From Bacteroidales bacterium (GTDB lineage: Bacteria; Bacteroidota; Bacteroidia; Bacteroidales; UBA932), in NCBI GenBank assembly GCA_024401745.1, contig JAKSKK010000020.1:1-36401 (forward strand): a stretch of DNA of 36,401 bases, given 5' to 3'. The translations under genes were made by a program, and so were the position numbers. Positions 1 to 30,755 of the stretch are shown piece after piece (the first letter of the stretch is position 1; every line of letters begins with the position of its first letter). The notes beneath the pieces are model-generated. The model made no database searches and was not told the origin of the DNA. It saw only the letters and a program-made list of their open reading frames with translations.

Positions 1-532
1 ACAGTCTCCACAAACACCATTGGGCTGCATTTGGGCGTCGGATTCTAAGTTATTCACTTGCGCCCGTATGTCAGTAAAGCAGATACTCGCCCCCCCCAGT
101 GTGCTTACTACCAAATAATCAGGGGCATTGAGCACACACTCAATACTTTAACGAAGCTGAAGGCATCGCTACACTTCTATTCATCGAGGGCTTTTGCTAG
201 AGGAGCGGTCAGAGAACTGCAGCAGTGGCTTTGTGCCCACTCTGCACATATACTCAAAATAGCTTTGACTATATGTGCAAGCAATTTTTGTGAATCCACG
301 TTAGAAGCACTTAAGAGGCCTATTGACTTCTTTCTATTGCACATATAATTGCCTCTTGTTTTCAGTTTATGTGCACAACCTTCCGCATCCTATACGTATA
401 TACGGCCAGTGTTGTGAATCAGTGCTCAAATACAATGACATGGTACCAGGACCGATGTGCCACGCACCACGCACTGAAGGACATGGACAACCTTGAGACA
501 GCTTGCAAACATAAACCCAAAGGGGGGTTCCG
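1..532. other. Left-edge region without a convincing gene
   Basis: No long reading frame here looks coding. A 55-codon frame on the minus strand (344 to 177) reads without obvious low-complexity but matches nothing I recognise, and plus-strand frames at 58-348 and 369-638 look like chance. The nonamer GCACATATA occurs at 244-252 and 339-347, and its reverse complement at 270-278, so 244-278 can form a 9-bp perfect stem with a 17-nt loop. The stretch may be a decayed intergenic region downstream of the fimbrillin-like gene, which ends at 533. Confidence 0.4.
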
Positions 533-2122
533 TTACTCGCAATCCACTATAAGGCGAACACCAAATCCTTCATCCTTGCGATTGAGGCCATCCATGAAAG
601 GTCCGGAATTGGTGTTGAATTTCATGGCGTATGCATAATTATCCGTATAGTCCAGCGACGTCCAGTATCCTCCATAGTACTGCCTTCCGCCTGCGTTGAT
701 ATAATGGTCTCCCTCCCTGATGCCATTCTCGGGGAGGAACACGATTCCTGCATTCTTAAGCCCGCTCCAGGTCCAGTTGGCGTCGCTGTCATCCACAGGC
801 TTGCCATTGAAATCGTCGGGATAGATGAATATACCGTTGGCGGCAATATCATCGATCTTCACCAGATCCCAGGCCGTCTTTGTGTACCTGGGCTTGCCAT
901 ATGTCATGGTCCTGGTGTTGAAAAGATATTCCCAATCCCCATAGCTCGGAGTACGCCAGGGATCTGAAGGCTGGAGGGCCCAGCCCCAATCATATTTATC
1001 AGAGAACTGGCCGTCCTTCGGTATTGTGTACTGACCGTAAGGGTCGGTGGATTTCTCGTCATCATAACCCCAGCAGTGCAGGGTTATCTCCTCTGTGCTC
1101 ACTTCACCCTCGCGAGGCACGTCATACTGAGGCTCCTTGAACGACCACAGGCCGGTGAGCGTTGTGTAAACGAGATTTCCGCATGAGAAATATACCTGGC
1201 GGGTGTCACTTACACTGAACCTGCCCCGAAGTGCACCTTCAGGTAGGGCCTTGGTAATCTTGCCGTCAATGAGGCCAAGGTCATAGATCTTGCTGGTTCC
1301 GGAGAAATCGGCCCTCTTTGAAACGGCTATCTCGCCATCTGCAGTACGGGAGCCGGCCTTGTAGAACAGGAGAGTGAACCCGTATTCGAAATCCGTCGGG
1401 ATAATTCCTATGTAGTAAGTCTTGCCGGAGTGCCCGCTAATGTCAAGGCTGACGTCGGTGCTACCATGAAAGGTACTGCTCTCATATCGGGTAAAGGCAG
1501 GTTTGTCGCCGGAAAGGTCAAGCTGTACGGGGCCTGCGATGATCTCGTCGTCATTGCCCTTGAGGACAATCCTGGAATAATCATCGCTGTCAAGCGTGAA
1601 CTCGATGAAGTTGGTGATATTGGAGAAGAAGAACCCATAGGTGCCGGCAGTGCTCGGGACAGACCGGCTCGCAGCAACATGGCCGGAACCGAAAGTGCCT
1701 TTCTGTGCAGGCGGTACGGTAGCAACCAGCTGGGCCGGATATCCTTCCTCGGTTGTGAATGCCGATGAAGGGTACAGCGCATCATAATAAGTAGACGTGC
1801 TGGCGGTCTTGATTCTGAAAGTGGCCCTTGACTGGTCGGCAGGGTTGATATCGGCGGAAGTCAGCGTGACGTAGGTAGAGAACATCAAGGATGTCTCGGG
1901 GCGGATGAATATCCCGTCCCCCGCCTGCCATATGGGTGTGGGAGTCGAACCGGCGTCGCTGATTGCGGTCTTGGTAGCATCAGATGCCATATCGCAGACA
2001 AAAGTAACATATTCTTCCTCGGCTGTCTGAAGAAGTTCATCAGGATCATTTGCCGAGCATGACACAAGCATGGCTGCAAAAGCGCAAGCCAGCAATATGG
2101 AGAAAAGCTTGTTGATTTTCAT
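533..2122 (-). CDS. Fimbrillin-like surface lipoprotein with C-terminal lectin/FISUMP-like domain
   Basis: Predicted outer-membrane surface lipoprotein of 529 residues. I place the start at the ATG at 2122, four codons inside the longest frame, because the lipoprotein signal begins there: a basic start, a hydrophobic stretch, then the lipobox LVSC with Cys22. The N-terminal half follows the fimbrillin pattern: a KTAI-type segment, then a W-Q-A-G-D-G-I turn, then beta-rich sequence. The C-terminal half, from about residue 300, begins GRFSVSDTRQVYFSCGNLVY and contains WRTPSYGDWEYLF, GIVFLPENG, YWTS and GVRLIV. That is the layout of the C-type-lectin-like/FISUMP domains common on Bacteroidales surface proteins. 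The role is probably adhesion or fimbrial tip/accessory; the ligand is unknown. A 46-residue peptide gene lies 14 nt upstream in the same direction, so the two are probably one transcript. Confidence 0.8.
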   Translation of the reverse strand: MKINKLFSILLACAFAAMLVSCSANDPDELLQTAEEEYVTFVCDMASDATKTAISDAGSTPTPIWQAGDGIFIRPETSLMFSTYVTLTSADINPADQSRATFRIKTASTSTYYDALYPSSAFTTEEGYPAQLVATVPPAQKGTFGSGHVAASRSVPSTAGTYGFFFSNITNFIEFTLDSDDYSRIVLKGNDDEIIAGPVQLDLSGDKPAFTRYESSTFHGSTDVSLDISGHSGKTYYIGIIPTDFEYGFTLLFYKAGSRTADGEIAVSKRADFSGTSKIYDLGLIDGKITKALPEGALRGRFSVSDTRQVYFSCGNLVYTTLTGLWSFKEPQYDVPREGEVSTEEITLHCWGYDDEKSTDPYGQYTIPKDGQFSDKYDWGWALQPSDPWRTPSYGDWEYLFNTRTMTYGKPRYTKTAWDLVKIDDIAANGIFIYPDDFNGKPVDDSDANWTWSGLKNAGIVFLPENGIREGDHYINAGGRQYYGGYWTSLDYTDNYAYAMKFNTNSGPFMDGLNRKDEGFGVRLIVDCE

Positions 2123-2136
2123 TGCGTCAGGCACGA

Positions 2137-2277
2137 TTAAATGTTAAAGTCTTCCCTGTGGTAAGGATCGATGCCTCCGTCGCTGTTAGGCTCCGAGCTG
2201 GCGCATATAAGATTGTTCAGGATTATCCCAATAACTTCAACGGATGGGGAAAAATACTCTTCTTGCAAATATCTCAT
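2137..2277 (-). CDS. Small acidic peptide (46 aa) upstream of fimbrillin-like gene
   Basis: This short frame starts at the ATG at 2277 and stops with TAA at 2137-2139. The peptide starts MRYLQEEYFSPSVEVIGI, has a central NNLICASSEP segment with a single Cys, and ends in an acidic tail (DPYHREDFNI). Short peptides with this plan (a P-x-V-E-V/I segment, then a Cys-Ala-Ser motif, then a Gly/Asp-rich tail) commonly sit directly before fimbrillin and other lipoprotein genes in Bacteroidales; this is from memory. The context fits: a TAACTTTG -7 box lies at 2314-2321 and the lipoprotein gene starts 14 nt downstream. The function is unknown; a leader peptide, a secreted peptide or a subunit partner are all possible. 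Confidence 0.6.
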   Translation of the reverse strand: MRYLQEEYFSPSVEVIGIILNNLICASSEPNSDGGIDPYHREDFNI

Positions 2278-2313
2278 ATTGATAAATTTTAATGGCAGTT
2301 TCATTCAATCTTA

Positions 2314-2321
2314 CAAAGTTA
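2314..2321 (-). promoter_or_regulatory. -7 box TAACTTTG for the peptide/fimbrillin-like operon
   Basis: The minus strand reads TAACTTTG, matching the Bacteroidota -7 consensus TAnnTTTG, 36 nt upstream of the small peptide start at 2277. I see no good TTG-type -33 element at the usual 19-20 nt spacing. Confidence 0.55.
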
Positions 2322-2529
2322 ACACTTTTTCAAAACCTGTCTCTGCCGAAGAAAGCCAAAAGGACTGGAATGAGGCTGCGTTATTTCATTGATATGGAAG
2401 TTAGAGTGCTATCGGCGGATTTTCAATACGTACTTGAACGATTTGAGCATGAATTTCGAAAATTCATCAGGGGTAGTCAGTTTTTGATGGCAATCTTTGT
2501 TTCGGTGATGTAGAAAAGTCTAAAATTCA

Positions 2530-2537
2530 TACCTTTG
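2530..2537 (+). promoter_or_regulatory. -7 box TACCTTTG for orphan lipoprotein gene
   Basis: TACCTTTG matches the TAnnTTTG consensus and lies 61 nt upstream of the lipoprotein ATG at 2599. No clear -33 element is visible. Apart from this box and the minus-strand box at 2314-2321, the 2278-2598 intergenic stretch shows nothing I can name. Confidence 0.55.
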
Positions 2538-2598
2538 TAACCAGTCATACACAAGACAAACATCCTTGGAAAAGATATCAAGGCTCAATTCGAGGAAA

Positions 2599-3396
2599 AT
2601 GAAAACCCACCATTTAATCATTGCATCGGCCATCGTCTGCATTGCTTGCTCGCCATCTATCAACTTCGTCGAAAAGAACCATGGCAATTGGTATGGTCCG
2701 GCGTCATGTGCATTTGATGATTATATTGATTATTATTGCTGCCTGCCATCCGATCTTTCAGAACTTGATGGTTTCATCTTGATGAGAGATGGAGAGCTTG
2801 ATGATGATAGATATTGCTTCGGGGATGTCAAATCTCTTCATGAGGAATTTCAAACGAGGAAAGTTCTGTACTATTCTGCTTCAGATTCCTGCTATTACTG
2901 TAGCAGGAGGTACAATAAGACCAGAGAGTGTTTGAAGTTATATTCGCCTCAATACTATTATTCTCATCCTGACTTCGCGATAGAAAATCTGAAGAATCAG
3001 AACAGATGGACGGAACCGATGTTTTTCTCTGATGGCAATGTCCGCTGCTGCCAGGAATTGACATCAGAGTTCATATCCTTGCTACAAGACATTCGGTCAG
3101 AATATTCCGGAGCCTTAGTCAAACCATGGAAATACAGGCAAAGCATTTACCACAACGCCTACCTGTTTGAGTTTTCAGACAATGATCTTAAGCTGATTTC
3201 TTGTTCCCCTTCATTGGATGACGTGGTATATATAGACCGGCAAGGAAACATAAAGCCGATACCGGCAGAGTTTGAGAATTCTCCAGAATGTCTTGGCGAG
3301 GCTTATTTGCAGGTGTTGCAGTCTACTCTGGAAGAATTCGTGCGGAGATACGGCAATATCAGAAAAGTGATATTCATTTCTCCTATTCTGCTATGA
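2599..3396 (+). CDS. Orphan AT-rich lipoprotein, stop codon inside the left 24-bp repeat
   Basis: A protein of 265 residues that I do not recognise. I choose the ATG at 2599 rather than the upstream one at 2566 because a lipoprotein signal starts there: MKTHHLIIASAIV, then lipobox CIAC with Cys17. The mature part is rich in Tyr, Cys, Asp and Ser, with a Cys-rich patch around residues 85-95 (DSCYYCSRRY), and shows no catalytic motif I can identify. Base composition is clearly more AT-rich than the GC-rich genes around it, suggesting acquisition. Its TGA (3394-3396) falls inside the 24-bp direct repeat at 3392-3415, so the present C-terminus could be native or could have been made by a recombination event at that site. 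AT-rich orphan lipoproteins of this kind often turn out to be immunity proteins, but nothing here proves that. Confidence 0.6.
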   Translation: MKTHHLIIASAIVCIACSPSINFVEKNHGNWYGPASCAFDDYIDYYCCLPSDLSELDGFILMRDGELDDDRYCFGDVKSLHEEFQTRKVLYYSASDSCYYCSRRYNKTRECLKLYSPQYYYSHPDFAIENLKNQNRWTEPMFFSDGNVRCCQELTSEFISLLQDIRSEYSGALVKPWKYRQSIYHNAYLFEFSDNDLKLISCSPSLDDVVYIDRQGNIKPIPAEFENSPECLGEAYLQVLQSTLEEFVRRYGNIRKVIFISPILL

Positions 3397-3415
3397 CCCC
3401 GTGCCCTAGTCGAGC
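3392..3415. repeat. Left 24-bp direct repeat (candidate attachment core)
   Basis: These 24 bases, beginning tatgaccccgtgccctagtc, are identical to 12765-12788, and the identity ends abruptly on both sides. The right copy spans the last codons and stop of lepA, so this left copy looks like a duplicated lepA 3' end, as left by site-specific integration. A CCCCGTG (3397-3403) and a facing CACGGGG (3430-3436) form an inverted pair only at this end, which could be a recombinase-binding arrangement or chance. Confidence 0.75.
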
Positions 3416-3466
3416 AATGTCATTGATGCCACGGGGCTTACTCCTAGCCTTTCACAACTGTATTTA

Positions 3467-4726
3467 TTACCCTTTCGCAAACTCCTTCAAGGAGTCGATC
3501 ATGGGCTGGAATTCCGCATCCTTCATGATTGCCCTGTCGAAATATTTGTAGTACCCCGACTGTGCGCCCATATGAGGGAACTCCTGGAGCATGGCTGCAT
3601 AAGGCACGGGGCACTTCGACAGAAGGCCTGCGGCATATGCTGCCCTGACCACCTGAGCGACCTCCTTGCCTTTCCTGTATCTATTCCCGTCTGCGCCTTC
3701 CATCAGTGTATGCAGGGCTTCCAGGATCTGTCCCACCGACTTGCGGCTGTCACATATGTAATGCCTGATGTCATGCGTGCCTCTGGACGGGCCAGGATCG
3801 ACACCCAGCAGAGGCGACTCCAGTGTGTCCTGAAGAAAGCCAAACTCAAGGGTGCTGACCGACATCCAGAGAGCCTTGTGGTTGAACTCGAAGCCATACA
3901 GGTCCGCAACGCCAGTGCCGGCAGCTTCAGCATTCCTGTCAATCGCTGTATACGCAGAGATGAACCAGTACAGATGGCTCTTGACATACTCATCCCGACC
4001 CATCCTTTTCTCCTGTATCTTGGATGTCCAGTTACGGTAAAGATCAGACCAAACAGATGTCATGGTGCCGGCACCCGCAGAAAGGGCCTTGCTGAACGGG
4101 GTATAGGTTAATCCATTCCGTGACGCCAGCACATATTCCGCCTGATGCTTCTTGATTTCCTCCATGCAGTACTCCCTGTTCGCTCCTGTCAGTCTCCAGG
4201 CCCTCTCATTGGGCTGATCCTTCCCATCCCAGAAATCGAAAGGGATCACGGCCGGCTTGAATTTCTCGATATCCATCACTATGGCTCTCTTGCGAAGCGT
4301 CAACTCCCGAGTATGGAGGATGATGTAGTTACGGAAGGCATATCGCTTTTCTTTCTGCTCACCGAAAACACCCGACATGGCAGACCTCCCATACAGACAT
4401 CGAAGCACTTCCCGTTCCCAGTATGAGATGTCATACAACTTTCCTAGGGTATTGGAACCGCGAAATCGTTCCACCCGTTCATAGTAATCCTTGAACAACG
4501 AATCAACCAGGCTCTGCAAACTGGCAGCCTCCCTCTGCCAACTCGTCCCCGGATTGGTGCAGGACCTGATGCGCTCTGCAACGAACGAGGAGAAGAATTC
4601 CGAATTCGGCTTCTGCTCGACGTCGCGTATGCTTTCGGGGATTCCCCTGTTCCTGTCAAATGTTGAGTTGCCCTTCATCATGGCGGTGTTGAAGCAAAGC
4701 ATGTTTGTCGATGTGCTGTTTCCCAT
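3467..4726 (-). CDS. Unrecognised 419-aa protein of the island
   Basis: A soluble-looking protein with no signal peptide and no membrane segment. I do not recognise the family. The N-terminal 150 residues are polar and helical. The C-terminal region (about residues 355-410) contains KGKEVAQVVRAAYAAGLLS followed by PYAAMLQEF and GYYKYF, which looks like a small helical domain and could bind DNA. A THDIRHY stretch near residue 325 superficially resembles the HxxR box of tyrosine recombinases, but the other boxes are not visible. It is transcribed away from the RHS operon; its promoter and the TGGAG repeat array lie in the shared intergenic region, so it could be a regulator or DNA-handling protein for the island. 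The start at 4726 lies 4 nt after a TATATTTG box, suggesting a leaderless mRNA. Confidence 0.65.
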   Translation of the reverse strand: MGNSTSTNMLCFNTAMMKGNSTFDRNRGIPESIRDVEQKPNSEFFSSFVAERIRSCTNPGTSWQREAASLQSLVDSLFKDYYERVERFRGSNTLGKLYDISYWEREVLRCLYGRSAMSGVFGEQKEKRYAFRNYIILHTRELTLRKRAIVMDIEKFKPAVIPFDFWDGKDQPNERAWRLTGANREYCMEEIKKHQAEYVLASRNGLTYTPFSKALSAGAGTMTSVWSDLYRNWTSKIQEKRMGRDEYVKSHLYWFISAYTAIDRNAEAAGTGVADLYGFEFNHKALWMSVSTLEFGFLQDTLESPLLGVDPGPSRGTHDIRHYICDSRKSVGQILEALHTLMEGADGNRYRKGKEVAQVVRAAYAAGLLSKCPVPYAAMLQEFPHMGAQSGYYKYFDRAIMKDAEFQPMIDSLKEFAKG

Positions 4727-4730
4727 GCTT

Positions 4731-4738
4731 CAAATATA
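4731..4738 (-). promoter_or_regulatory. -7 box TATATTTG for the 419-aa gene
   Basis: The minus strand reads TATATTTG, a perfect TAnnTTTG match, with a GTTG about 17 nt upstream as a possible -33 element. Only 4 nt separate the box from the ATG at 4726, so transcription should start at or very near the start codon. Confidence 0.65.
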
Positions 4739-4783
4739 ATAAACAGAACTTGAATCAACATGAAAAAATCATAAAATCTTTGA

Positions 4784-4862
4784 TGGAGAAATCAGTGGAG
4801 TAAAAGTGGAGAAACAGTGGAGTGTTAATGGAGCAAAATCAACGAAGTGGAGATTAGTGGAG
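4784..4862 (+). repeat. Array of seven TGGAG repeats, mostly 11 bp apart
   Basis: TGGAG occurs at 4784, 4796, 4807, 4818, 4829, 4848 and 4858, with steps of 12, 11, 11, 11, 19 and 10 bp. The 11-bp period is about one helical turn, so a protein could bind successive copies on one face of the DNA. The array lies between the divergent 419-residue gene and the holin/RHS operon, which suggests an operator or an iteron-like site. No clean TAnnTTTG box for the rightward operon was found; the nearest partial match is AATCTTTG at 4775-4782. Confidence 0.7.
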
Positions 4863-4889
4863 TGCACTGAAAACTCCACTAATCTCCAC
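4847..4889. repeat. Perfect 17-bp inverted repeat in the island control region
   Basis: The arms 4847-4863 and 4873-4889 are exact reverse complements around a 9-nt loop (GCACTGAAA). The left arm includes the last two TGGAG units of the array, and the right arm carries two CTCCA copies. It has no T-tract and lies 85 nt upstream of the holin-like start codon. An operator, a cruciform/origin-like element or an RNA hairpin in the leader are possible; a terminator is unlikely. Confidence 0.75.
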
Positions 4890-4974
4890 CGCAGAAACTT
4901 GCGAAACCGATTGTGGAAGTTGAATTTTGCATTCGGAAATCCGGCCGGAAATCCCAAAAATTATAAATAAAGTT

Positions 4975-5211
4975 ATGATTACGACAAAAACAATCTCATC
5001 CCTCCTGTCCGCTGAAAGAGGGAGCCTCTCATCGAAGAGGCTATGCGGATTCATCGGCTGGCTATGCTGCGCAGCCGTGCTCATCATGTGCACCGTGTGG
5101 GACCGAGAGGCTCCCGAGATGGTGTCCACAGTACTCTATGCGTCCACGGCCCTGCTGGGCCTGGATTCCGTGACAGATATCTGGAAAGACAAGACAACGC
5201 AAATCAAGTAA
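4975..5211 (+). CDS. Small two-helix membrane protein, holin-like, upstream of RHS gene
   Basis: A 78-residue protein. I chose the ATG at 4975 rather than 4927 because the conserved-looking sequence begins there. A short polar N-terminus (ISSLLSAERGSLSSKRLCGF) leads into a first hydrophobic helix (about residues 23-43) and a second (about 49-67), ending in a charged tail. This plan is like the small holin-type membrane proteins of Bacteroidales phages. The stop is 4 nt before the RHS start, so the two are surely co-transcribed. A holin beside a peptidoglycan-acting RHS toxin suggests a role in export or release, but the RHS protein also has a Sec-type signal. The assignment is by resemblance only. 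Confidence 0.65.
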   Translation: MITTKTISSLLSAERGSLSSKRLCGFIGWLCCAAVLIMCTVWDREAPEMVSTVLYASTALLGLDSVTDIWKDKTTQIK

Positions 5212-5215
5212 GATC

Positions 5216-8200
5216 ATGAAAGCAATTAAAAAGATATCAATGCTGGCCGCAGGCATCTTCGTACTGTCCGTGGCCGAGAGCCGGGGTCAGCACACATCGC
5301 CTGCGCTGGACTATGACCCCACGCCAAAGGCGCTGGAGATGACCAGATACGGGAATCTGCAGATTGACAAGACAGGCGGCAGAATCACCTTTGACATACC
5401 TCTGTACACCTACGATGACAAGGACTTCAGCATTCCTGTCGGTCTGTCGTATGCCAGCAACGGTTTCCGTCCGGGCTCTCAGACAGGTGAGGCCGGGCTT
5501 GGATGGACTCTTGCCGCCGGCGGCGCCGTGACAAGGGAGATCATCGGCGGAGACGACTTCAAGTCAAGCGGAATGTTTTCATCAGGAGGGCGAACGGACC
5601 CTGCGACATTGTACTCGATGGATTATTCTGTAAGTTACCTTTGCATTGACGACGATGTGCTATATCCGTATATATCGGACTGTCACGAGACGACATCCGA
5701 CATCTATCACTTTACAATGCCCGGACATTCAGGATCGTTCCTTATCGGAAACGATGGGGAGTTCCATGCCTACGGAACCAGTGATGGACTCGGGACATAT
5801 GACATCTCATATGAGCGGTCATCCATCCGGATCATCACAGGTGACGGCTACGAATACCGATTCGGTTCAACCGCACTGAGCCGGGAGATACTGGTGGGAG
5901 GAGACCCGATTTCGAGCAGCAGTCCGAACAGCTTGCCTGACAGGCAGAAACCGGTGGTCACCTGGCTTCTGGACACGATCATAGCCCCTGACGGCAGGTT
6001 CGTCACATTCGACTACGAGTCGAACGGAATCGAGTACCCCAAGACATATCCCGACCCCGTAACACATCCTGATGTGGTAACGTCCGTGGCCGCCTGTCTC
6101 GGAAGGCATATCCAGATCGGCCAAAGCCCGGATGTCACGGTGTTCAAGACCGCCAGTCTCAAGTACACCGCATATCTGTCCGGAATCGCCGTTCATGAGC
6201 CTGACAGCGTAACGACGTTTGCAGCCAATTTCGAATGGGCATATGAGCAGGGCTCCGAGATGGGCGACGAGGACTGGCAGCCATATACCAAGCTTGCCGT
6301 GCCGACGAGAAAGCTTGCATCTGTGACATTCACTGACTCAGGACGAACACTGAGGCAAGCCACCTTGGCCTATGATTATGACGGATGCAGGCCTCTGCTG
6401 GCTTCAGTCGATTTCGGAGCTCTGGGCAAATATGATATGACCTACGTCTCTGACCCCGACCATCCTCTGCCGGGACTTACCTCGAACGGCGTGGACTACT
6501 GGGGCTACTACAACGGCAAGGACAGCAACTCCGACTCGTTCATGAACAGCATCTCGTCCGTGGACAGCGACTTCAACGAGACCATTCCGCAGTCGCATAC
6601 CCAGATGGACCCTGACTGGCACTACAGCCGGCTGGGTACGCTCTCGTCGGTGAAGTATCCGACGGGAGGACGCACGACGTTCACCGTCGAGGCCAACATC
6701 GCATCGAAGATACTGCTCCGTCGCAGGCATACAAGCGGCTGGGTCCAGCCTGCCAATCCATATCTCGAGTTCGAGGATGAGGATGAAATATCCGATTCGT
6801 TCCTGCCCGGCTTATACCCCTGGTCCGCAATGCTCCACAGTTCCGAGTGTGGAGGAGTCAGGGTCGCTTCCGTTACTGACTATGATGCCGTAGGGGGAAC
6901 ATCCACAAGGACGTTCACCTATCAGGACGGACTGGTACAGACATTCCCAAGATACTATGTGGGTAATACCATACCGGGCTCTACGGCCCTTGTTGCCATC
7001 CCATCGCTGAGTTTCCCTGCATCTTCACTGGACAGGCTGCACGTGTCCTACGGAAAGGTGACGGAGACCATGCCTGACGGCAGCAGAATCCTCAGCGAAT
7101 ACACCGACTGGATGGACGAGCCGGATTCATACTCGACAAACAGAAGAATGATAAGTGATCTAGATACCGGAAACAGCGAAGATTTCAATATCTTCCTGGA
7201 CAACCGCCTTCGCGAACCTGATTCCCACCATTACAGGCGAGGGCTTCTCAAGCGTCAGCGCACCTATTCCCCAGAGGATGTACTGCTTTCTGACAAGTCG
7301 GTGACATATCAGGACGTGGGCAGCGGATATGCATCATACATAGTGGGAAGCGGACGCTACTGGTGGAGTGCAAGGCGCTTCATATGCGATGTGCTCCCTA
7401 TTTCAGAGACCTCCAGCGAGTATTACTCCGGGGCATCCCCGCTCATCACCACGAAAGTGTTCGCGTATGACAGCCGAGGAAGGAAGACATCGGAGACCAT
7501 CGAACATTCTGACGGCACCACCGAGGTGAACTGCACCGTATTCATGGACAGGGGCTACAGACATGATCTCGTCTCATCTCAGTCCATACTTGGCAAACGT
7601 GCATATGAGGACACCCTGAGACTGCACGAGTCGGCCTCTTACACATACTCTCACCCTTCCGGAACACTATGGAACCTGACCGGCTTCACTCGTACCCTGT
7701 ACGACGCCTCTGGCAGCGGCACCACAGCTGACGAGCTTTCCTTCTCGAACTTCGATGCGTTCGGCAATCCCTGGCAGCAGACTTTCAACGGTGTGAACAC
7801 GGCCTTCGTATGGGGGCACCGCGGAAGGTACATGTCGGCCAAGGTGCTAGGATGCACATACGCGGGGCTGCCGGGATCTGTCAAGACAGTCATCCCGACC
7901 AACCTCACTGACGGAATGAAGACAGCCCTTCGCAATCTGTCCGGCAAGGAGACAACCATCTATGACCATATACCCTCCATAGGAGCATCCTCCATCACGG
8001 GGCCGTCCGGACGGTCCTTGTCATACGAATATGACGGAGTAGGGCGTCTGGTCAATGTGACCTCGAGTCTCGGTGCCATTGCCCACTACACCTATGGCAT
8101 CATGAACCGGCAAGATACCTTGAGGTATGTGGAGTCGACGCTGTACGGACAGCCCGACAGGACGGAGAGGACCGTCTATGACGGGCTTGGTCGTCCATGG

Positions 8201-11149
8201 ATCACGTCCGAGGGGGTGGCGGGACATCTGCGCATCTCACTGAGGCACTATGACGAATGCGGCGTCGAAGACAAGAAGTATTCTCCTTACGGCGCATCAT
8301 CACTGAACATCCAGTCACCACTGGGAGTGCAGAGGGAATGGTGGAATGAGGAGTCCGACGGCGAGGGTGCATACGCCTTCGAGGAGTCAGGATATGACAA
8401 CTGCCTAGCCCCGCGCACGACATGGACCAGGATGCCCGGCTCCGCGATGGCAGGGAATGCCGGCCTGACCACGACCACGCGCTCGACTAACGCTGCCGGA
8501 GAAGTTGCCGACTTGAGGTATGATGAGACCGACGCTGCCGTGCACATGTTGGGCACGGTGGCCGCTGGAAGGCTGCTCAGGACCCGGGCCGTCGGACCGG
8601 ACGGGCAGGTCATTGTGACCTTCACGGATGCCTCCGGCAGGACTGTCCTCGAACGGAGAGGAGAAGGCGACGTCCAGGCCGACACGTACTATGTGTACGA
8701 CTTTCTTGGCAGGCTGGTGATGGTCGTGACGCCGGAGCTGGGGACGGAACTGACCACGGATGCGGTTGCAGGAGTGCAGCGTGTCCTCTCTACATCCGAA
8801 CCTGGAACAGCCGGGAAGTGCTATATATATGAATACGACAGTAAAGGCAACCGCAGTGGATCCGGAGTGCCCGGCGCGGGGATGTCGACATTGCACTTTG
8901 ACGCAAGGCACCTGCCCACGTCAGAGGCTCCGTCACTCTTTGATAGGACCATGCTGTCCAGGACATTCTCATACGATTCTGCGGGGCATCTTACTTCTGC
9001 GAAGCTGGATTGGTCGGCACAGTTGGAAGTGGACCCCGAGCCCGGCCTTCCACCGTTGCTTTCCTCTCCCGTCCACCGCAAATGGAACCTCGGCAGCTAC
9101 ACCTACTCCGGTGGCGACCTCGTAGCGGAAATCCATCATGTGGTGGATACCACATTCCTTCTGCCTGGACTGCATCCCGTCATAGGGAACATTGCCATCG
9201 TGGACAATCCAGTCTCGTCCGCCCATGCAGACAAGACATACACCTATGACTCCCTCGGCAGAGTGACGGAAGCCAGGACTGAGTGGCCTGACGGCGCAGA
9301 GAGCCGCATTGCCAGAACCTTCGATAAGCAGGGCAAGGTGATGTCGGAAACGGAGTCATATTCCGACAGCCGTCTCTCCCTCCAGGGGTATACGCTGTGG
9401 GCCAGGACACAGAACACATATGACGCATTCGGCAACTGCACCGAATCGTTGAGACAGGCCGGTACGGGAACCCCGGACGGCGGAACGACACTGCTCTCGA
9501 CTGAAGTGCACAGGCAGTATGACGCCATTGGACGGTTGAAGAGGACTACGGTATCTGACGGTGGCGGCTCAGTGGCGACGGACCTCGGATACACCGTCCA
9601 GGGATGGCTGTCGTCCTCGAACACGTCACTTGACGGAGAGGATGTTTTCACCGAGCGTCTGCGCTATTGGAACCCGGTCAAGGCTGCTGACGGAGCAAGG
9701 CACGACGGCAACGTCTCGGAGGCGGAATTCAAGCATGGGGAGAACGGCTCAAGGACAGAGGCATATTCGTACGACGCTCTCGGCCGCATCACAGGGACAA
9801 GGGCATATCTGGGATCATCATCGGTGGCGACGACCGGATTCACTGAAGGCGGCATCAGCTACAGCCGCAACGGTGACATCCTCTCCCTGAAGAGATACGA
9901 CTCCGACGGCTTGTCAGAGAATCTGGGCTATGCATACGACATCTACGGACAGCTGTCTTCAGTAAGGGATACCGTAGCCGGCAGGGCCTGCACCTTCTGG
10001 TACGACTCCGCTGGGAACCTCACCCGTGACGGCTACGCGCCCGATCTGGAATACATGTACAACGTCATCGGCAAGCTGAGCAGCGTGATGGCTCCCGAAC
10101 CGGGCATCTTCAGCCTCGACAGGGTCGAGACCGCGAAGTACATCTACCTCGCGGACGGCACAAAGATCGGAGTTTCCCTTCCCGACGGATCGGAGACGAT
10201 GTACCGCGGACCGTTCATCCTTCACAGGGATGCGGACGGTGATGTCGAACTTCAGACGCTGATCCTGCCGGAAGGCATCGCAGTACCTGATCAGAATTCC
10301 CTGAAAATGTATATATTTGTGTCAGACCGTCTGGGCAGCATCAGGGCCGTGGTGGACCTCGGGGAGCGTGAAGTGTGCGAGGAGAACGACTACTATGCCT
10401 TCGGCAGCAGGATTCCCGGCGGAGAACAGCTCATTGAAAACAGGTGGCGCTACTCCGGCAAGGAGGAACAGGAAGCCCTCAGCGACCTGCCGTACATCGA
10501 CTTCGGCGCAAGGCTCTACAACCCCCGCCTCGGCCGCTGGCTCAGTCCGGACCCCCTGGCGGAGAAGTACTTCTCCATGAGCCCCTACAACTACTGCGGG
10601 AATGATCCGGTGAACAGATTTGATCCGGATGGGAGGTGGAATGTAACAGTTCATTTATATGAAGATAGAGCAACCAATGGATATGGATATGCCGTTGTCA
10701 CAGACAATGAGGGGAATGAAGTGTTCCGATTCGATGTTAGAGCAGAAGGTACTAATGGTCACGACAGAACAAAAACAAATGCGGACACTCCGTTAGGAAC
10801 ATATGATATACCTGACGAGAACCCTTGGATTGATGGCGGCGATAGACAAGCATATGGTCCTAACAGCAGGTTAAATATGGTACCAGAATCCGGCGAAATT
10901 ATAGAAACAGGCAGAAATAATATCAGGATTCATGGTGGAAGACAGGAGATGTTTGACTCTAAAACAAATACTTGGCACCCCATAGAACAACCTACATTAA
11001 AAAAGACGCACGGCTGCGTAAGAGCATATGATGAAGATATGAAAAATTTTAAAATAATTACTGAGGATTTGCAACAGAAAAACAAAGACGAACGTCCCGG
11101 GAAAGTGTTTATTATAGATGATTTGAAAAATGAAAATGATAAAAAATAA
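5216..11149 (+). CDS. RHS/YD-repeat polymorphic toxin with C-terminal L,D-transpeptidase (YkuD) tip
   Basis: A 1977-residue secreted protein. Residues 1-25 look like a Sec signal (MKAIKKISMLAAGIFVLSV...). An SpvB/TcdB-like N-terminal region follows (GEAGLGWTLAAGGAVTREI near residue 90). YD repeats then fill the middle, with many units such as YDGVGRLV, YDFLGRLV, YDSLGRV and YDAFGN; these should form the hollow RHS cocoon. The RHS core (about 1704-1807) starts DRLGSIRAVV, includes YSGKEEQ and LGRWLSPDPL, and ends FDPDGR. The 170-residue tip (1808-1977) is AT-rich and carries TPLGTYDI, IRIHGG (His1906) and THGCVRAYDED (Cys1934). That is the YkuD signature, with an unusually long spacer between the His and the Cys. 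Tips of this fold are known as peptidoglycan-targeting effectors (Tlde1 of Salmonella). The expected target is peptidoglycan tetrapeptide stems in the periplasm. The next gene overlaps the stop by 20 nt and is the immunity candidate. Confidence 0.9.
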   Translation: MKAIKKISMLAAGIFVLSVAESRGQHTSPALDYDPTPKALEMTRYGNLQIDKTGGRITFDIPLYTYDDKDFSIPVGLSYASNGFRPGSQTGEAGLGWTLAAGGAVTREIIGGDDFKSSGMFSSGGRTDPATLYSMDYSVSYLCIDDDVLYPYISDCHETTSDIYHFTMPGHSGSFLIGNDGEFHAYGTSDGLGTYDISYERSSIRIITGDGYEYRFGSTALSREILVGGDPISSSSPNSLPDRQKPVVTWLLDTIIAPDGRFVTFDYESNGIEYPKTYPDPVTHPDVVTSVAACLGRHIQIGQSPDVTVFKTASLKYTAYLSGIAVHEPDSVTTFAANFEWAYEQGSEMGDEDWQPYTKLAVPTRKLASVTFTDSGRTLRQATLAYDYDGCRPLLASVDFGALGKYDMTYVSDPDHPLPGLTSNGVDYWGYYNGKDSNSDSFMNSISSVDSDFNETIPQSHTQMDPDWHYSRLGTLSSVKYPTGGRTTFTVEANIASKILLRRRHTSGWVQPANPYLEFEDEDEISDSFLPGLYPWSAMLHSSECGGVRVASVTDYDAVGGTSTRTFTYQDGLVQTFPRYYVGNTIPGSTALVAIPSLSFPASSLDRLHVSYGKVTETMPDGSRILSEYTDWMDEPDSYSTNRRMISDLDTGNSEDFNIFLDNRLREPDSHHYRRGLLKRQRTYSPEDVLLSDKSVTYQDVGSGYASYIVGSGRYWWSARRFICDVLPISETSSEYYSGASPLITTKVFAYDSRGRKTSETIEHSDGTTEVNCTVFMDRGYRHDLVSSQSILGKRAYEDTLRLHESASYTYSHPSGTLWNLTGFTRTLYDASGSGTTADELSFSNFDAFGNPWQQTFNGVNTAFVWGHRGRYMSAKVLGCTYAGLPGSVKTVIPTNLTDGMKTALRNLSGKETTIYDHIPSIGASSITGPSGRSLSYEYDGVGRLVNVTSSLGAIAHYTYGIMNRQDTLRYVESTLYGQPDRTERTVYDGLGRPWITSEGVAGHLRISLRHYDECGVEDKKYSPYGASSLNIQSPLGVQREWWNEESDGEGAYAFEESGYDNCLAPRTTWTRMPGSAMAGNAGLTTTTRSTNAAGEVADLRYDETDAAVHMLGTVAAGRLLRTRAVGPDGQVIVTFTDASGRTVLERRGEGDVQADTYYVYDFLGRLVMVVTPELGTELTTDAVAGVQRVLSTSEPGTAGKCYIYEYDSKGNRSGSGVPGAGMSTLHFDARHLPTSEAPSLFDRTMLSRTFSYDSAGHLTSAKLDWSAQLEVDPEPGLPPLLSSPVHRKWNLGSYTYSGGDLVAEIHHVVDTTFLLPGLHPVIGNIAIVDNPVSSAHADKTYTYDSLGRVTEARTEWPDGAESRIARTFDKQGKVMSETESYSDSRLSLQGYTLWARTQNTYDAFGNCTESLRQAGTGTPDGGTTLLSTEVHRQYDAIGRLKRTTVSDGGGSVATDLGYTVQGWLSSSNTSLDGEDVFTERLRYWNPVKAADGARHDGNVSEAEFKHGENGSRTEAYSYDALGRITGTRAYLGSSSVATTGFTEGGISYSRNGDILSLKRYDSDGLSENLGYAYDIYGQLSSVRDTVAGRACTFWYDSAGNLTRDGYAPDLEYMYNVIGKLSSVMAPEPGIFSLDRVETAKYIYLADGTKIGVSLPDGSETMYRGPFILHRDADGDVELQTLILPEGIAVPDQNSLKMYIFVSDRLGSIRAVVDLGEREVCEENDYYAFGSRIPGGEQLIENRWRYSGKEEQEALSDLPYIDFGARLYNPRLGRWLSPDPLAEKYFSMSPYNYCGNDPVNRFDPDGRWNVTVHLYEDRATNGYGYAVVTDNEGNEVFRFDVRAEGTNGHDRTKTNADTPLGTYDIPDENPWIDGGDRQAYGPNSRLNMVPESGEIIETGRNNIRIHGGRQEMFDSKTNTWHPIEQPTLKKTHGCVRAYDEDMKNFKIITEDLQQKNKDERPGKVFIIDDLKNENDKK

Positions 11150-11924
11150 ACTTGTCCTTATACTTTTTTTCGTGTTTGCTATCATATTTTTTAGCAACTG
11201 CAATTTCCCCAAAAAGTATGCATATTGGTTGGATTATGATACCGCAAAACAAAGTAGAATAATCCAAAACAAAAAAGTGAATCCACTTGCGAGATCAATA
11301 TATTTTAACGAAAATTTTGTCAGCGATAATGAAGATTCCTTTTTGTTGTTGGAAGAATTAACATCATTTAATCATAATAGTCAGATAAATGCTTTCTATT
11401 ATTATGTCTTTGGGAAGATTTGTCAATCAGCAGATGGAGTAGTATCTGAAATACTTGGCCATTATTGTTTGAATTCTCTAATGAATTCTACGGAATATAA
11501 CCTTCAATACTTTAAAAGAGATACTTCTCTTGCGAACAAATATGCGGAATATATTGCATTTGAATTAACACAAAGCAAAGAAACAATTGAAAAATATGGT
11601 ATTCTGAAGCAACGGTTAGAATCAATATGTGCATGCCAACCTGGAATAACAGATGTGTCCAATTACCTACTAAATATTGTTGAAGTTAGATGTTTAGAAA
11701 TGGAGGACATAACTATAACAGAAAACACTGTGGCTACTTTTCATAGCCATCAATCTTACGTACCAAAGTCAAACATGAGGAGCTCAGATTATCCATCATC
11801 GGCCGATATGAATAATGCTAAAGTTCATGGAACTGCTGGTTATCTGTTTGTCCCAAAAGATGGCCTAGCTCTAGTCTATGATGGCATGGGTGTTCATGCA
11901 ACGTTCCCATTGAACTTAATATAA
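11130..11924 (+). CDS. Lipoprotein overlapping RHS stop, candidate immunity protein with JAMM/DUF4329-like C-terminus
   Basis: A 264-residue AT-rich lipoprotein. It starts at ATG 11130 inside the RHS gene (stop 11147-11149), so translation is probably coupled; a second ATG at 11136 is possible. The signal segment ends FFSNC, with Cys24 as lipidation site. Residues 50-180 look all-helical and acidic (ELTSFNHNSQINAFYYYVF, then a long helical stretch), as in many immunity proteins. The last 65 residues differ: TFHSHQ (His205 and His207), then PSSADMN (Ser223, Asp226), GYLFVPKDGLALVYDG and the end. That matches H-x-H ... S-x-x-D of JAMM/JAB metallopeptidases and the DUF4329 domains seen as RHS tips. 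The protein may be the immunity factor for the YkuD tip with a fused remnant of an older tip, or a peptidase in its own right. The location suits defence against a periplasmic toxin. Confidence 0.75.
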   Translation: MKMIKNKLVLILFFVFAIIFFSNCNFPKKYAYWLDYDTAKQSRIIQNKKVNPLARSIYFNENFVSDNEDSFLLLEELTSFNHNSQINAFYYYVFGKICQSADGVVSEILGHYCLNSLMNSTEYNLQYFKRDTSLANKYAEYIAFELTQSKETIEKYGILKQRLESICACQPGITDVSNYLLNIVEVRCLEMEDITITENTVATFHSHQSYVPKSNMRSSDYPSSADMNNAKVHGTAGYLFVPKDGLALVYDGMGVHATFPLNLI

Positions 11925-11931
11925 TAAAAAT

Positions 11932-12435
11932 ATGAGGTTCAGAATAATAGCAATTATCAGTTACATCTTGGTCATTTCAAATTGCGACAGATGCACGCAC
12001 CATTTGGGCACGGAGAATACCATTAATGATGATGAGTGTATATACTTTTTTACTGAAGGGAATGTTATGTACGAGAAAGAGACCACATACTCTTTCAATG
12101 CTGACACATCAATGATTATTGAAAACATGAGGAAAGTCTGTAAAGATATTGATAAGTTGGTTAAGTCCAAACTGATTAGTCTTGATACTAGAATAACTGA
12201 TGTAAGCGAACACACACCCAATGATTGTTTGAACATATCTTTGTATCTTCCAGAACCCGGCGAAACCAATATCCTCTTAGAAATTGTCGCTTCTCGTGAT
12301 TACATTAATAATGACACTCTTGTCCCGATTGTTGAGAACTGTTTGGAATTCATATCCGAAGGTAACATCCCTGATAACGGACCAATAAAACTAGTGAGCA
12401 AAAAGAATGAAATAGATTTATTGACAAATCAGTAG
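11932..12435 (+). CDS. Second small lipoprotein of the RHS locus
   Basis: A 167-residue AT-rich protein that I do not recognise. It begins MRFRIIAIISYILVISNC, a lipoprotein signal with lipobox ISNC and Cys18. The mature part is acidic with alternating helical and strand-like stretches, such as SMIIENMRKVCKDIDKLVKS and NILLEIVASRDYI. It starts 7 nt after the previous stop, so it belongs to the same operon. By position and composition it is a second immunity candidate, either for the present YkuD tip or, more interestingly, for an earlier RHS tip whose remnant survives in the gene before it. The two downstream terminators close the operon. Confidence 0.7.
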   Translation: MRFRIIAIISYILVISNCDRCTHHLGTENTINDDECIYFFTEGNVMYEKETTYSFNADTSMIIENMRKVCKDIDKLVKSKLISLDTRITDVSEHTPNDCLNISLYLPEPGETNILLEIVASRDYINNDTLVPIVENCLEFISEGNIPDNGPIKLVSKKNEIDLLTNQ

Positions 12436-12585
12436 TGTTGGATTTCTTCAGATAGTATCGGTGCATCCACTGTCTCGGACTATTACCCTGCGGGCTGGCA
12501 GACGTCCTGCACCGAAAGGCGTTGTGGTGAGATTGGTATCAACTACGACGGCAATATGATAATAGATACTCGAAACCCATTTTGA
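12436..12585 (+). pseudogene. GC-richer coding remnant after the last lipoprotein gene
   Basis: Directly after the TAG at 12433-12435, the same frame stays open for 49 codons to a TGA at 12583-12585. It contains DYYPAGWQTSC and GEIGINYDGNM. Base use in the middle of this stretch is GC-rich, unlike the AT-rich lipoprotein gene before it. It has no start codon at its head. It looks like the tail of a displaced or truncated gene rather than random sequence, but I cannot name the parent. Read-through of the TAG could also join it to the preceding gene. Confidence 0.3.
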
Positions 12586-12617
12586 TTCTCCCACAATATC
12601 TATTATTACCTTGATTT

Positions 12618-12650
12618 GTCAGAGCCGTGAATTTCGGCTCTGACTTTTCT
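12618..12650 (+). terminator. Intrinsic terminator 1 (10-bp perfect stem)
   Basis: GTCAGAGCCG (12618-12627), a 7-nt loop, then CGGCTCTGAC (12635-12644) and TTTTCT. The perfect stem and T-tract face the rightward RHS operon, so it should end that transcript. Confidence 0.85.
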
Positions 12651-12703
12651 GGTACTGTTTCAAAAAGTGTGTCTAGCTCCGGTCTAGCACATTTGCAGGG
12701 ATT

Positions 12704-12739
12704 GTCAGAGTCGATATTATCGGCTTTGACTTTTCTTTT
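12704..12739 (+). terminator. Intrinsic terminator 2, near-copy of terminator 1
   Basis: GTCAGAGTCG (12704-12713), a 7-nt loop, then CGGCTTTGAC (12721-12730) and TTTTCTTTT. All ten positions pair, two as G-T. Arm sequence and loop length resemble terminator 1, so one is probably a duplicate. It also stands just before lepA, which runs towards it on the other strand, and may protect against read-through into lepA. Confidence 0.8.
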
Positions 12740-12764
12740 GCAAACATTGTTGCCCAACTTTGGT

Positions 12765-12788
12765 TATGACCCCGTGCCCTAGTCGAGC
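12765..12788. repeat. Right 24-bp direct repeat, overlapping the lepA 3' end
   Basis: Identical over 24 bases to 3392-3415. Positions 12779-12788 are the last bases of lepA, including its TAG (12779-12781), so the conserved gene end provides part of the core, as in many integrase attachment sites. Confidence 0.75.
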
Positions 12789-14566
12789 TTGAGGACGGCC
12801 ATGAAGGCGCTCTGAGGCACCTGGACCTTTCCGATCTGGCGCATTCTCTTCTTACCTTCCTTCTGCTTCTCGAGCAGCTTGCGCTTTCGTGTGACGTCGC
12901 CGCCGTAGCACTTGGCGGTCACATCCTTGCGCACCTGCTTCACGGTCTCGCGGGCTATGATCTTGGCGCCCACCGCGGCCTGCACGGGAATGTCGAACTG
13001 CTGGCGCGGGATGAGGTCCTTGAGCTTCACGCACATCTTGCGGCCGAAGTCTGCCGCGTTGTCGGCGTGGATGAGGGTGCTGAGGGCATCGGCGGGCTCT
13101 CCGTTCAGCAGGATGTCCAGGCGGACGAGCTTGGCGGGACGGTAGCCGATCTGGTGATAGTCGAACGATGCGTATCCGCGTGAGATGCTCTTGAGCTTGT
13201 CGTAGAAGTCGAAGACTATCTCGCTCAGGGGCATGTCGTAGTTGAGCTCCACGCGGTCGGCGGTGATGTAGTGCTGGCTGATGAGGGTGCCGCGCTTGTC
13301 GAGGCAGAGCTTCATTATGGCGCCGAAGTACTCCGACTTGGAGATGATCTGCGCGCGGATGAAAGGCTCCTCGATATGCTCGATGAGCGTGGGTGCCGGG
13401 AGACCCGAAGGGTTGTGCACGTCGAGGCACTCGTCCTGCATCGTGTACACCTTGTACGAAACGTTGGGCACGGTGGTGATGACGTCCATGTCGAATTCGC
13501 GGAAGATGCGCTCCTGCACGATCTCGAGGTGCAGAAGACCGAGGAAACCGCAGCGGAATCCGCTTCCCAGCGCGAGCGAGCTCTCGGGCTCGTACACGAA
13601 GGATGCGTCGTTCAGCTGGAACTTCTCGAGCACTGCGCGCAGTTCCTCGAACTTGTCGGCCTGCACGGGATACATACCGGCGAAGACCATGGGCTTGACC
13701 TCCTCGAAGCCGGCGATGGCCTCGGTGCAGGGATTGCCCGCAAGGGTTATGGTATCGCCCACCTTGACCTCGGTGGCGCTCTTGATGCCTGTGATTATGT
13801 AGCCTACGTCGCCGCAGTCGACTGACTGCGAGGGGACGAGCTTCATCCTGAGGATACCGACCTCCTCGACGTCATACTCCTTGCCGGTGGCGAAGAAACG
13901 TATCTTGTCGCCCTTGCGGATGCTGCCGTTCTTCATCTTGAAGTAGGCTATCACGCCGCGGAAAGAGTTGAACACGCTGTCGAAAATGAGGGCCTGGGCG
14001 GGACCGTCGGGGTTGCCCTGGGGTGCCGGAATCTTCTCCACTATCGCGTCGAGGATGGGGGCGACGCCCTGTCCCGTGCGCGCGGAAACCTTGAATACAT
14101 CCTCGGGGGCGCAGCCCAGCAGGTCACATATCTCGTCGGTTACCACCTCTATCTGGGCGGACTCCATGTCGATCTTGTTCAGCACGGGGATGATCTCCAG
14201 GCCATGGTCGATCGCCATGTAGAGGTTGGAGATGGTCTGGGCCTGAATGCCCTGGGATGCATCGACCACCAGCAGCGCTCCCTCGCAGGAAGCTATGGAA
14301 CGTGACACCTCGTAGCTGAAGTCAACGTGACCCGGAGTGTCGATGAGGTTGAGCTTGTACTTCTCGCCCTTGTATGTGTGCACCATCTGGATAGCATGGC
14401 TCTTGATGGTGATTCCCTTCTCCTTCTCGAGGTCCATGTCGTCAAGGACCTGATTCTCCATATCACGCTCCGCAAGGGTGCTGGTCAACTCGAGCAGCCT
14501 GTCAGCCAGGGTGCTCTTGCCGTGATCGATGTGCGCTATGATGCAAAAATTGCGAATATGTTTCAT
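12779..14566 (-). CDS. lepA: Elongation factor 4 (LepA) GTPase
   Basis: A 595-residue ribosome-binding GTPase that affects elongation and initiation under stress. It has full family length. The GTPase motifs are visible: [14 protein letters not shown] (G1, near residue 11), DTPGHVDF (G3) and NKID (G4). EF-G-like domains III and V follow, then the LepA-specific C-terminal domain with many basic residues ([19 protein letters not shown]). The start at 14566 has a short 33-nt leader from a TATCTTTG box at 14600-14607. The stop lies in the 24-bp repeat that borders the RHS island; the coding sequence is intact, so insertion at the gene end did not damage it. Confidence 0.98.
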
Positions 14567-14660: not shown

Positions 14661-15500
14661 ATGGCAACAATAGAAGAATTAACCAAGATCTCATCCCAGG
14701 TTCGCAGGGACATCATCCGCATGGTCACTGCAGCCAAGTCTGGCCACCCGGGCGGATCACTCGGCATCACAGACGTGATGACGGCTCTGTATTTCGCAGA
14801 AATGAACCAGGCTCCGGAGACATGGACACGCAGCGCAAAAGGCCAGGACGCATTCATCCTTTCAGCAGGCCACCTTGCTCCCGTGTACTACTCCGTCCTT
14901 GCACGTGCAGGCTATTTCCCCGTTTCTGAGCTCGGAACCCTGCGCAAGTTCGGCAGCCGCCTCCAGGGACACCCCTGCGTGACTGACAGCCTCCCCGGCG
15001 TGTTCAAGCCTTCAGGTTCACTCGGCCAGGGCCTTTCAGTAGCAGCCGGCATCGCATTCGGCAAGAAGATGGACGGCGACGGCACCCGCGTTTACTGCCT
15101 CTGCGGAGACGGTGAGAGCGAGGAAGGCCAGATCTGGGAAGCAGGCATGTGGGCACAGCACAAGCAGCTCGACAACCTCATCGCCTTCACAGACTGGAAC
15201 GGCCAGCAGATCGACGGCCCTACCAAGACCATCACCGGCATCGAGGACCTCAGCGAGAAGTGGAGCGCCTTCGGCTGGGACGTGATAGTTGCTGACGGAC
15301 ACAGCTTCGAGAGCATTCTCGACGCATTCAAGCTCGCCCACAATGCAGACGGCAAGCCCAAGATGATTCTCTTCAAGACCGAGATGGGTCACGGTGTTGA
15401 CTTCATGGCAGGTACTCACGAGTGGCACGGCAAGGCTCCTTCAGCAGAGCAGTGCGCAAATGCAATGACACAGTTGGAAGAAACTTTAGGAGATTTTTAA
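14661..15500 (+). CDS. Transketolase, N-terminal subunit (TPP-binding)
   Basis: A 279-residue thiamine-diphosphate half of a split transketolase in the non-oxidative pentose phosphate pathway. The start at 14661 (MATIEELTKISSQVRRD) is chosen over longer upstream frames that run back into lepA. SGHPGGSLG lies near residue 28. The TPP motif runs from GDGESEEGQIWEA to the Asn in FTDWNGQQ. The C-terminus has HGVDFMAGTHEWHGKAPS. The partner subunit starts one base after this stop, so the two halves are made together as a heteromer. Confidence 0.97.
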   Translation: MATIEELTKISSQVRRDIIRMVTAAKSGHPGGSLGITDVMTALYFAEMNQAPETWTRSAKGQDAFILSAGHLAPVYYSVLARAGYFPVSELGTLRKFGSRLQGHPCVTDSLPGVFKPSGSLGQGLSVAAGIAFGKKMDGDGTRVYCLCGDGESEEGQIWEAGMWAQHKQLDNLIAFTDWNGQQIDGPTKTITGIEDLSEKWSAFGWDVIVADGHSFESILDAFKLAHNADGKPKMILFKTEMGHGVDFMAGTHEWHGKAPSAEQCANAMTQLEETLGDF

Positions 15501-18929: not shown

Positions 18930-18941
18930 CCGGATACGACA

Positions 18942-18969
18942 GCCAGTCCTCGAACTAAACAGGTCTGGC
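18942..18969. terminator. Hairpin between convergent genes
   Basis: GCCAGTCCT (18942-18950) and AGGTCTGGC (18961-18969) pair with one T-T mismatch around a 10-nt loop. It lies between the convergent glycosidase and trmN6 genes, but lacks a T-tract on either side, so it is a weak terminator candidate. Confidence 0.35.
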
Positions 18970-18994
18970 CGACGGCGGGAACGATGAGGTGGAA

Positions 18995-20348: not shown

Positions 20349-20354
20349 AGCTTT

Positions 20355-20362
20355 CAAAGATA
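20355..20362 (-). promoter_or_regulatory. -7 box TATCTTTG for lolD
   Basis: The minus strand reads TATCTTTG, with only 6 nt before the lolD ATG at 20348. A leaderless or nearly leaderless transcript is expected. Confidence 0.65.
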
Positions 20363-20381
20363 TGAATTTTTGCCGACAATC

Positions 20382-20412
20382 TTGGGCGTTTCGCAAAGAG
20401 TAAGTATCTTTG
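20382..20412 (+). promoter_or_regulatory. Promoter of tRNA-Pro (and downstream CDS)
   Basis: TTGG at 20382-20385 as -33 element and TATCTTTG at 20405-20412 as -7 element, 19 nt apart, the classic Bacteroidota spacing. The tRNA begins 11 nt downstream. No other promoter-like box is visible between here and the CDS at 20501. Confidence 0.8.
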
Positions 20413-20423
20413 CAGCCACCAAT

Positions 20424-20496
<73 letters not shown>

Positions 20497-20500
20497 CGAT

Positions 20501-21415: not shown

Positions 21416-21439
21416 CGTCGTCATTCTCATAAAAATTCA

Positions 21440-21447
21440 TATCTTTG
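21440..21447 (+). promoter_or_regulatory. -7 box TATCTTTG for porin/peptidase operon
   Basis: A perfect TAnnTTTG match lying 5 nt before the ATG at 21453, so the mRNA is probably leaderless. No convincing -33 element. Confidence 0.6.
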
Positions 21448-21452
21448 AACTC

Positions 21453-22742: not shown

Positions 22743-22754
22743 AAAACACCGCCC

Positions 22755-29886: not shown

Positions 29887-29890
29887 CCCG

Positions 29891-30751: not shown

Positions 30752-30755
30752 ACCA

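Follow-up and report, generated by a model that had tools for sequence, protein, structure and literature searches.

The DNA analysed here, called the window in the following, is the whole of contig C13 (36,401 nt) of a Bacteroidales bacterium, whose assembly comprises 1.99 Mb in 63 contigs and is 71.6% complete. The window carries a full-length lepA gene on the minus strand (12779-14566; TIGR01393, E 6.8e-290), next to which lies a block of 9349 nt with an RHS gene (3416-12764, referred to as E2) enclosed by two copies of a 24-nt direct repeat. The repeat, TATGACCCCGTGCCCTAGTCGAGC, is found on the plus strand at 3392-3415 (copy B) and 12765-12788 (copy A), and both copies are identical in 24 of 24 positions, as the initial annotation of the locus had reported. 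They are the only copies in the window and in the entire assembly, even if up to three mismatches are allowed, and none of 100 shuffled windows contained the 24-mer twice. No exact direct repeat in the window is longer than these 24 nt; the maximum drops to 16 nt once one copy is randomised, and dinucleotide-preserving shuffles (n = 60) reached a maximum of 17 nt, which places the pair beyond chance. The same annotation had assigned the stop and the last codons of lepA to the right-hand copy. Indeed, copy A read on the minus strand consists of the final nucleotide of a Lys codon, Leu, Asp and the lepA stop (10 nt, 12779-12788), to which 14 nt of the type found at the 3' end of yidD are fused (12765-12778).

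The 24-mer combines the 3' ends of two convergent genes: one strand reads the end of lepA (10 nt) and the other the end of yidD (14 nt, ...Y-D-P-V-P-stop), whose stops overlap in the motif CTAG, and the Y-D-P-V-P-stop matches the YidD protein of this genome. The 14-nt part is present without mismatch in 10 of 400 genomes of the genus, this genome included; eight of the nine others have it at their yidD 3' terminus, and a search beside it in the remaining genome (G371) yielded no yidD. A lepA match was obtained in 384 of the 400 genomes, and the surroundings of the gene were inspected in 49 relatives, which represent the best lepA matches and not a random sample. In three of these 49 (G334, G281 and G207), lepA and yidD lie tail to tail and meet at the point that corresponds to the 24-mer, the stops overlapping as CTAG in G334 and G281 and as CTAA in G207; elsewhere among the relatives, other genes such as tatA or tatC adjoin lepA. 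The repeat corresponds to the uninterrupted junction of these three relatives with some letter differences, and, as judged from sequence comparison, this junction is the natural empty site. The initial annotation had named the end of lepA as the site; more precisely, the site is where the ends of lepA and yidD overlap. The idea of an insertion at this point withstood two comparisons with other species: the empty junctions join at the corresponding point, and a search of 200 genus genomes with up to three mismatches revealed the 24-mer only once more outside this genome, with three mismatches, at a tatC/yidD junction in G161.

In the genome under study, yidD is found on another contig. The only yidD match of the assembly (C17:370-564) lies at the start of contig C17, where the gene spans C17:367-594 and is whole, with the stop TAA; the C-terminus of its product, G-Y-D-P-V-P-stop, is encoded by the same 14-nt sequence, which here forms a third copy (copy C, C17:368-381) abutting yidD. 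In a simple island at lepA, the left copy would be the outer edge towards the chromosome. However, copy B does not seem to hold this position because yidD, the expected outer neighbour, sits on C17, and this simple reading was rejected for that reason. Copy B is flanked by foreign DNA on both sides, and at least two tenants seem to reside between lepA and yidD, namely E2 and a second one, E1, which would comprise positions 1-3391 of the window and the tip of C17. Together with the similarity of the C17 flank to G194 described below, the arrangement suggests that the neighbourhood of lepA and yidD is in principle preserved, and that the two genes would now be set apart by E2, the left-hand portion of the window, an unassembled gap and the first 366 nt of C17. 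For the region as a whole, we infer the order lepA - A - E2 - B - E1 - C - yidD, with C13 and C17 as neighbouring contigs. Another explanation would be an assembly artefact, in which two strains or loci were joined through the 24-mer. The fragmentation and incompleteness of the assembly, and the fact that both contigs reaching the region break nearby, speak for such an error; it is nevertheless very unlikely, as the 24-mer coincides with a junction that makes biological sense and no other exact direct repeat of the contig exceeds 16 nt. Moreover, 24 nt is below the final word size of common assemblers, which also counts against an artefact.

With moderate confidence, we favour a model of accretion, in which elements integrated site-specifically one after another at the lepA/yidD junction and left behind an RHS island that resembles a cis-mobilizable element (CIME) and carries no recognised recombinase. 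The 24-nt repeat would then be a duplicated attachment site (att site) derived from the overlapping 3' ends of lepA and yidD, and a presumed enzyme, most likely a tyrosine recombinase, would have inserted the DNA through conservative site-specific recombination. E1 would have entered the lepA/yidD junction first and would be flanked by a direct repeat of 14-16 nt (copies B and C); E2 would probably have followed at the lepA-side copy, thereby duplicating the 24 nt seen as copies A and B. The ends of lepA and yidD are contained in the repeats, so that neither reading frame is truncated and both genes retain their stop codons. Duplications of this length at gene ends are a usual product of tyrosine recombinases, and 24 nt exceeds the usual target duplications of DDE transposases. 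The initial annotation had taken the duplication of a gene end around a cargo segment as the mark of site-specific integration; the duplicated gene end is real and not due to chance, whereas the action of a recombinase is presumed. Perfect repeats that equal the uninterrupted target, a full-length lepA and a whole yidD are what an integrated element should present, but neither a recognisable recombinase gene in the element nor use of the attachment site in the lepA and yidD flanks scanned in relatives was found.

Support for this proposal comes from G194, the closest of the relatives encountered (97% with the C-terminal part of LepA as query). Here, transketolase-lepA faces yidD-rnpA-hemD at a distance of about 1756 nt, and both ends of the intervening stretch carry CTAGGG; the names of transketolase, lepA, yidD, rnpA and hemD in G194 were checked by Pfam on the copies of the genome under study. 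The C17 flank together with the yidD end matches the G194 stretch in 69 of 90 nt (E 2e-17). The protein encoded between lepA and yidD of G194 has the same orientation as F533, a protein on the minus strand of the proposed E1 (533-2134), which is secreted or lipoprotein-like and matches FISUMP weakly and below the cut-off (E 0.014). Both proteins resemble each other only weakly (23% identity, E 0.004); the G194 protein was not accepted as a FISUMP counterpart of F533, since NCBIfam yielded nothing for it and Pfam just a weak match to Lcl_C. A stretch of 4.45 kb between lepA and yidD in G104 was likewise dismissed as an island, as it holds, by eye, mostly ordinary chromosomal genes plus two short lipoprotein-like open reading frames (ORFs), and no repeat was found there.

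The far left of the window contains the remnant of a second yidD (64-165, plus strand), in which a deletion has brought the first 34 nt of the gene next to 74 nt from the region flanking yidD on its 3' side, with 94% identity to C17:565-598 and 97% identity to C17:274-347, respectively. This broken start with its flank indicates that other kinds of duplication happened here. It is also one of the observations behind a tenable but rather unlikely alternative, according to which the lepA-yidD region is a hot spot for homologous and illegitimate swaps, and copy B is the leftover of a duplicated yidD/lepA junction that arrived with other DNA and no att site. Pieces of yidD were evidently duplicated in some way, and the remnant is located upstream of the yidD end of copy B, with which it shares the strand; furthermore, G194 shares just the CTAGGG at both ends, and RHS loci of this genome share pieces, such as a region with 99% identity between C13 and C19. 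However, swaps of this kind would explain neither the sharp limit at 24 nt with foreign DNA beyond it nor the coincidence of the island ends with gene ends.

Several results weigh against the favoured accretion model. The yidD remnant at 64-165 is not predicted by a simple sequence of two tenants, and G194 lacks the 14-nt half next to lepA. A repeat of at least 14 nt was absent beside lepA (39 flanks) and yidD (12 flanks) of relatives from 40 loci, a scan with flanks of at least 1 kb that longer insertions would escape; the site has thus not been seen in use elsewhere. Exact junction patterns gave no match in genome contigs or viral contigs, and the empty junctions all come from other species and none from the same species. 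The ends of C13 and C17 do not overlap, and their join is unassembled. The 24-mer shows no clear inverted arms of a recombinase core by eye. Repeats around RHS loci can also have other causes, as illustrated by a locus of a relative (L084, G133:C2), where a repeat with a length of up to 44 nt occurs in multiple copies on both sides, near positions 1-150 and 14973-15174; two further RHS loci of relatives that were checked on both sides had no repeat of at least 13 nt (L085) and a 14-nt repeat (L083), respectively. Finally, integrative and conjugative elements (ICEs) of the GA1 type from gut Bacteroidales duplicate only 7 bp, according to the excerpted text of PMC8102008, and repeat length is consequently not diagnostic.

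The search for a recombinase adds to these objections. The initial annotation had noted that none is visible, and none was recognised in the block or nearby: a Phage_integrase search of the whole assembly, at its given completeness, detected no integrase in the window, and its matches at four other places are not tied to the lepA/yidD site. Two of these are XerD-like and XerC-like genes, both below the NCBIfam cut-offs. The third (C61:62131-63546, equivalent to L103:10132-11547) is a tyrosine integrase of the mobile type with a Phage_int_SAM_5 domain near a contig end, and the fourth (C53:6128-6340, L100) is a C-terminal piece of a tyrosine recombinase, also near a contig end, which lies antisense over the start of a gene resembling a truncated peptidase (by eye). 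Contig C53 shares 135 nt of 70% similarity with window positions 242-375 and was considered as a source of the recombinase; it was rejected, as it looks chromosomal and holds only the terminal integrase piece. No integrase family was found among the five E2 proteins in Pfam and NCBIfam or among the four that were run against PHROGs, and these family searches of E2 proteins named no transfer gene. The island thus keeps att-like sites, and genes for integration or transfer were not recognised in it, as is typical for a CIME. Since no recombinase was recognised in the visible tenants, E2 would behave like a CIME, that is, it would retain its att sites, require a recombinase in trans and presumably be excised and mobilised in trans.

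A conceivable recombinase within the island would be A419, an orphan protein of 419 amino acids encoded on the minus strand (3467-4726), with 51 nt between its stop codon and copy B. Searches revealed no family for A419 in Pfam (E <=10) or in NCBIfam, PHROGs and PADLOC (E <=0.1), and no match in 299 other genus genomes (E <=1e-5), plasmids, viral contigs, genome contigs or phages, where the scans of viral and genome contigs were single-protein locus scans that reach close relatives only. The sole match in the PDB was non-significant (E 0.21). That A419 itself is the recombinase of the island and belongs to an undescribed family would fit its place beside the repeat, its length, which would suit an integrase, and the finding that its only relative, a C-terminal remnant on contig C34 of the same genome, marks the edge of an island there as well. 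Nevertheless, we regard this assignment as highly doubtful, given the lack of any Pfam similarity at E <=10 and of a tyrosine-recombinase pattern by eye. A further-reaching proposal, which is improbable in our view, is that the lepA/yidD stop overlap is a new attachment site that RHS islands have used at least twice in this lineage, with a recombinase provided in trans or by A419 as a member of an undescribed family. Relatives of A419 and of E276, an orphan ORF of the proposed E1 at 2566-3396 on the plus strand, which is lipoprotein-like by eye and whose stop codon lies inside copy B, were tried as a route to a second island; neither protein has relatives in the other genomes searched.

Behind A419, the plus strand of the CIME-like island E2 carries four genes. 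B94 (4975-5211) is a small membrane protein with a match to PHROG 1322 'membrane protein' (E 3e-5); the PHROGs query began at the listed TTG at 4927, and the ATG at 4975 was chosen as start here. The adjacent gene (5216-11149) encodes an RHS protein of 1977 amino acids with an RHS-associated core (Rhs_assc_core, E 9.8e-19), RHS repeats (RHS_repeat, 7e-15) and a YkuD-like (L,D-transpeptidase-like) domain at the C-terminus, which scores just below the cut-off (E 1.3e-4, 23.0 bits versus 23.4). An RHS-associated core followed by a distinct C-terminal domain is the arrangement of RHS polymorphic toxins. The two small genes behind it encode C264 (11130-11924), which is lipoprotein-like by eye, matches DUF4329 below the cut-off (E 7.5e-4) and is a candidate immunity or accessory protein, and D167 (11932-12435), also lipoprotein-like by eye and of no family found, which is a candidate immunity protein; neither matched a known immunity family in Pfam, NCBIfam, PHROGs or PADLOC. 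The cargo of E2 resembles an antibacterial toxin of the RHS kind accompanied by immunity genes for lipoproteins. Near its right end, E2 contains a 31-nt tail (12649-12679, plus strand), a 97% copy of which is present in the remnant RHS island on C34. It was rejected as the end of an insertion sequence, as a 19-nt part of it has only two copies in the genome (with up to two mismatches). On either side of the tail, between 12618 and 12733, lies a terminator-like hairpin, and the two hairpins are similar in sequence but diverged (by eye). To the right of lepA and of two transketolase halves, the window holds genes that resemble glycan use by eye, with no search made (16464-36266), including two large glycosidase-like proteins as well as sialidase-like and esterase-like proteins.

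Two other RHS loci of the same genome share parts with E2. A decayed RHS island on C34 (C34:59792-61227, equivalent to L099:9793-11228) lies between an rnf cluster and a gene of the ferredoxin-reductase type (both by eye), and consists of 60 nt like the end of A419 (77%), an RHS core alignment of 277 nt (85%) and, further on, the 31-nt tail. The A419 end and the tail thus delimit a block at two places in the genome, in favour of a unit that is moved in one piece. The search for the empty site of the C34 island in G194 was uninformative, as the respective spot holds other DNA. The third RHS locus is located on C19, where C19:4390-4623 is 99% identical to window positions 4998-5231 (234 nt around B94 and the start of the RHS gene). 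The neighbours of both loci differ, and this similarity may be taken as a sign of recent exchange between the RHS loci of C13 and C19.

Elements of this kind have been described before. CIMEs, which keep their att sites and have lost the enzyme, and accretion, in which new elements insert beside existing ones, are treated in the part of PMC5704250 that was consulted. Like a CIME or a decayed ICE or integrative and mobilizable element (IME), E2 has att-like repeats at a conserved gene end, no recognised recombinase or transfer genes and an apparent tandem neighbour. However, the target here is a site where two convergent genes overlap, the genomes searched contained no related ICE or IME at lepA or yidD, and mobility in trans is presumed. 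The GA2 ICEs of Bacteroidales, which carry a type VI secretion system, are similar in that their integrases produce repeats of 22 bp and, by prediction, of 24 bp, their cargo is antibacterial and a tandem arrangement of one of them with a second ICE at a single site is reported; according to the excerpts of PMC8102008, they differ from E2 by insertion in tRNA genes and by possessing their own tyrosine recombinase. The initial annotation had regarded lepA as an unusual target for an RHS-carrying island with no visible recombinase, but for lepA as such the available text of PMC4632033 provides a precedent: prophage Gifsy-1 is inserted inside the lepA gene of Salmonella, which remains functionally unaltered, and a primer named 'LepA Gifsy-1 Fw' appears in an excerpt of PMC3976249. 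Both cases have lepA as the chromosomal target of an integrating element with retention of gene function; as far as these excerpts go, Gifsy-1 differs in being a whole prophage inside the lepA coding sequence and not at a yidD overlap. Other apparent parallels were discarded: the lepA-linked ICE site of Pseudomonas has tRNA-Lys as its target in the excerpt of PMC9495688, and in the parts of PMC8778435 and PMC5495485 at hand 'lepA' is just part of an author name. With RHS polymorphic toxin loci, E2 shares the RHS core, a distinct C-terminal domain of an enzymatic type and small genes behind it, whereas the bounding by a gene-end repeat sets it apart. The literature searched contained no report of the lepA/yidD overlap as an integration site. 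The kind of element is known; what appears to be new is the lepA/yidD site and its combination with an RHS cassette. If the proposed accretion is correct, convergent overlapping stops would offer a short conserved sequence as an attachment site that spares two genes, since insertion harms neither of them, and an RHS toxin-type cassette would be tied to island-type mobility in this genus.

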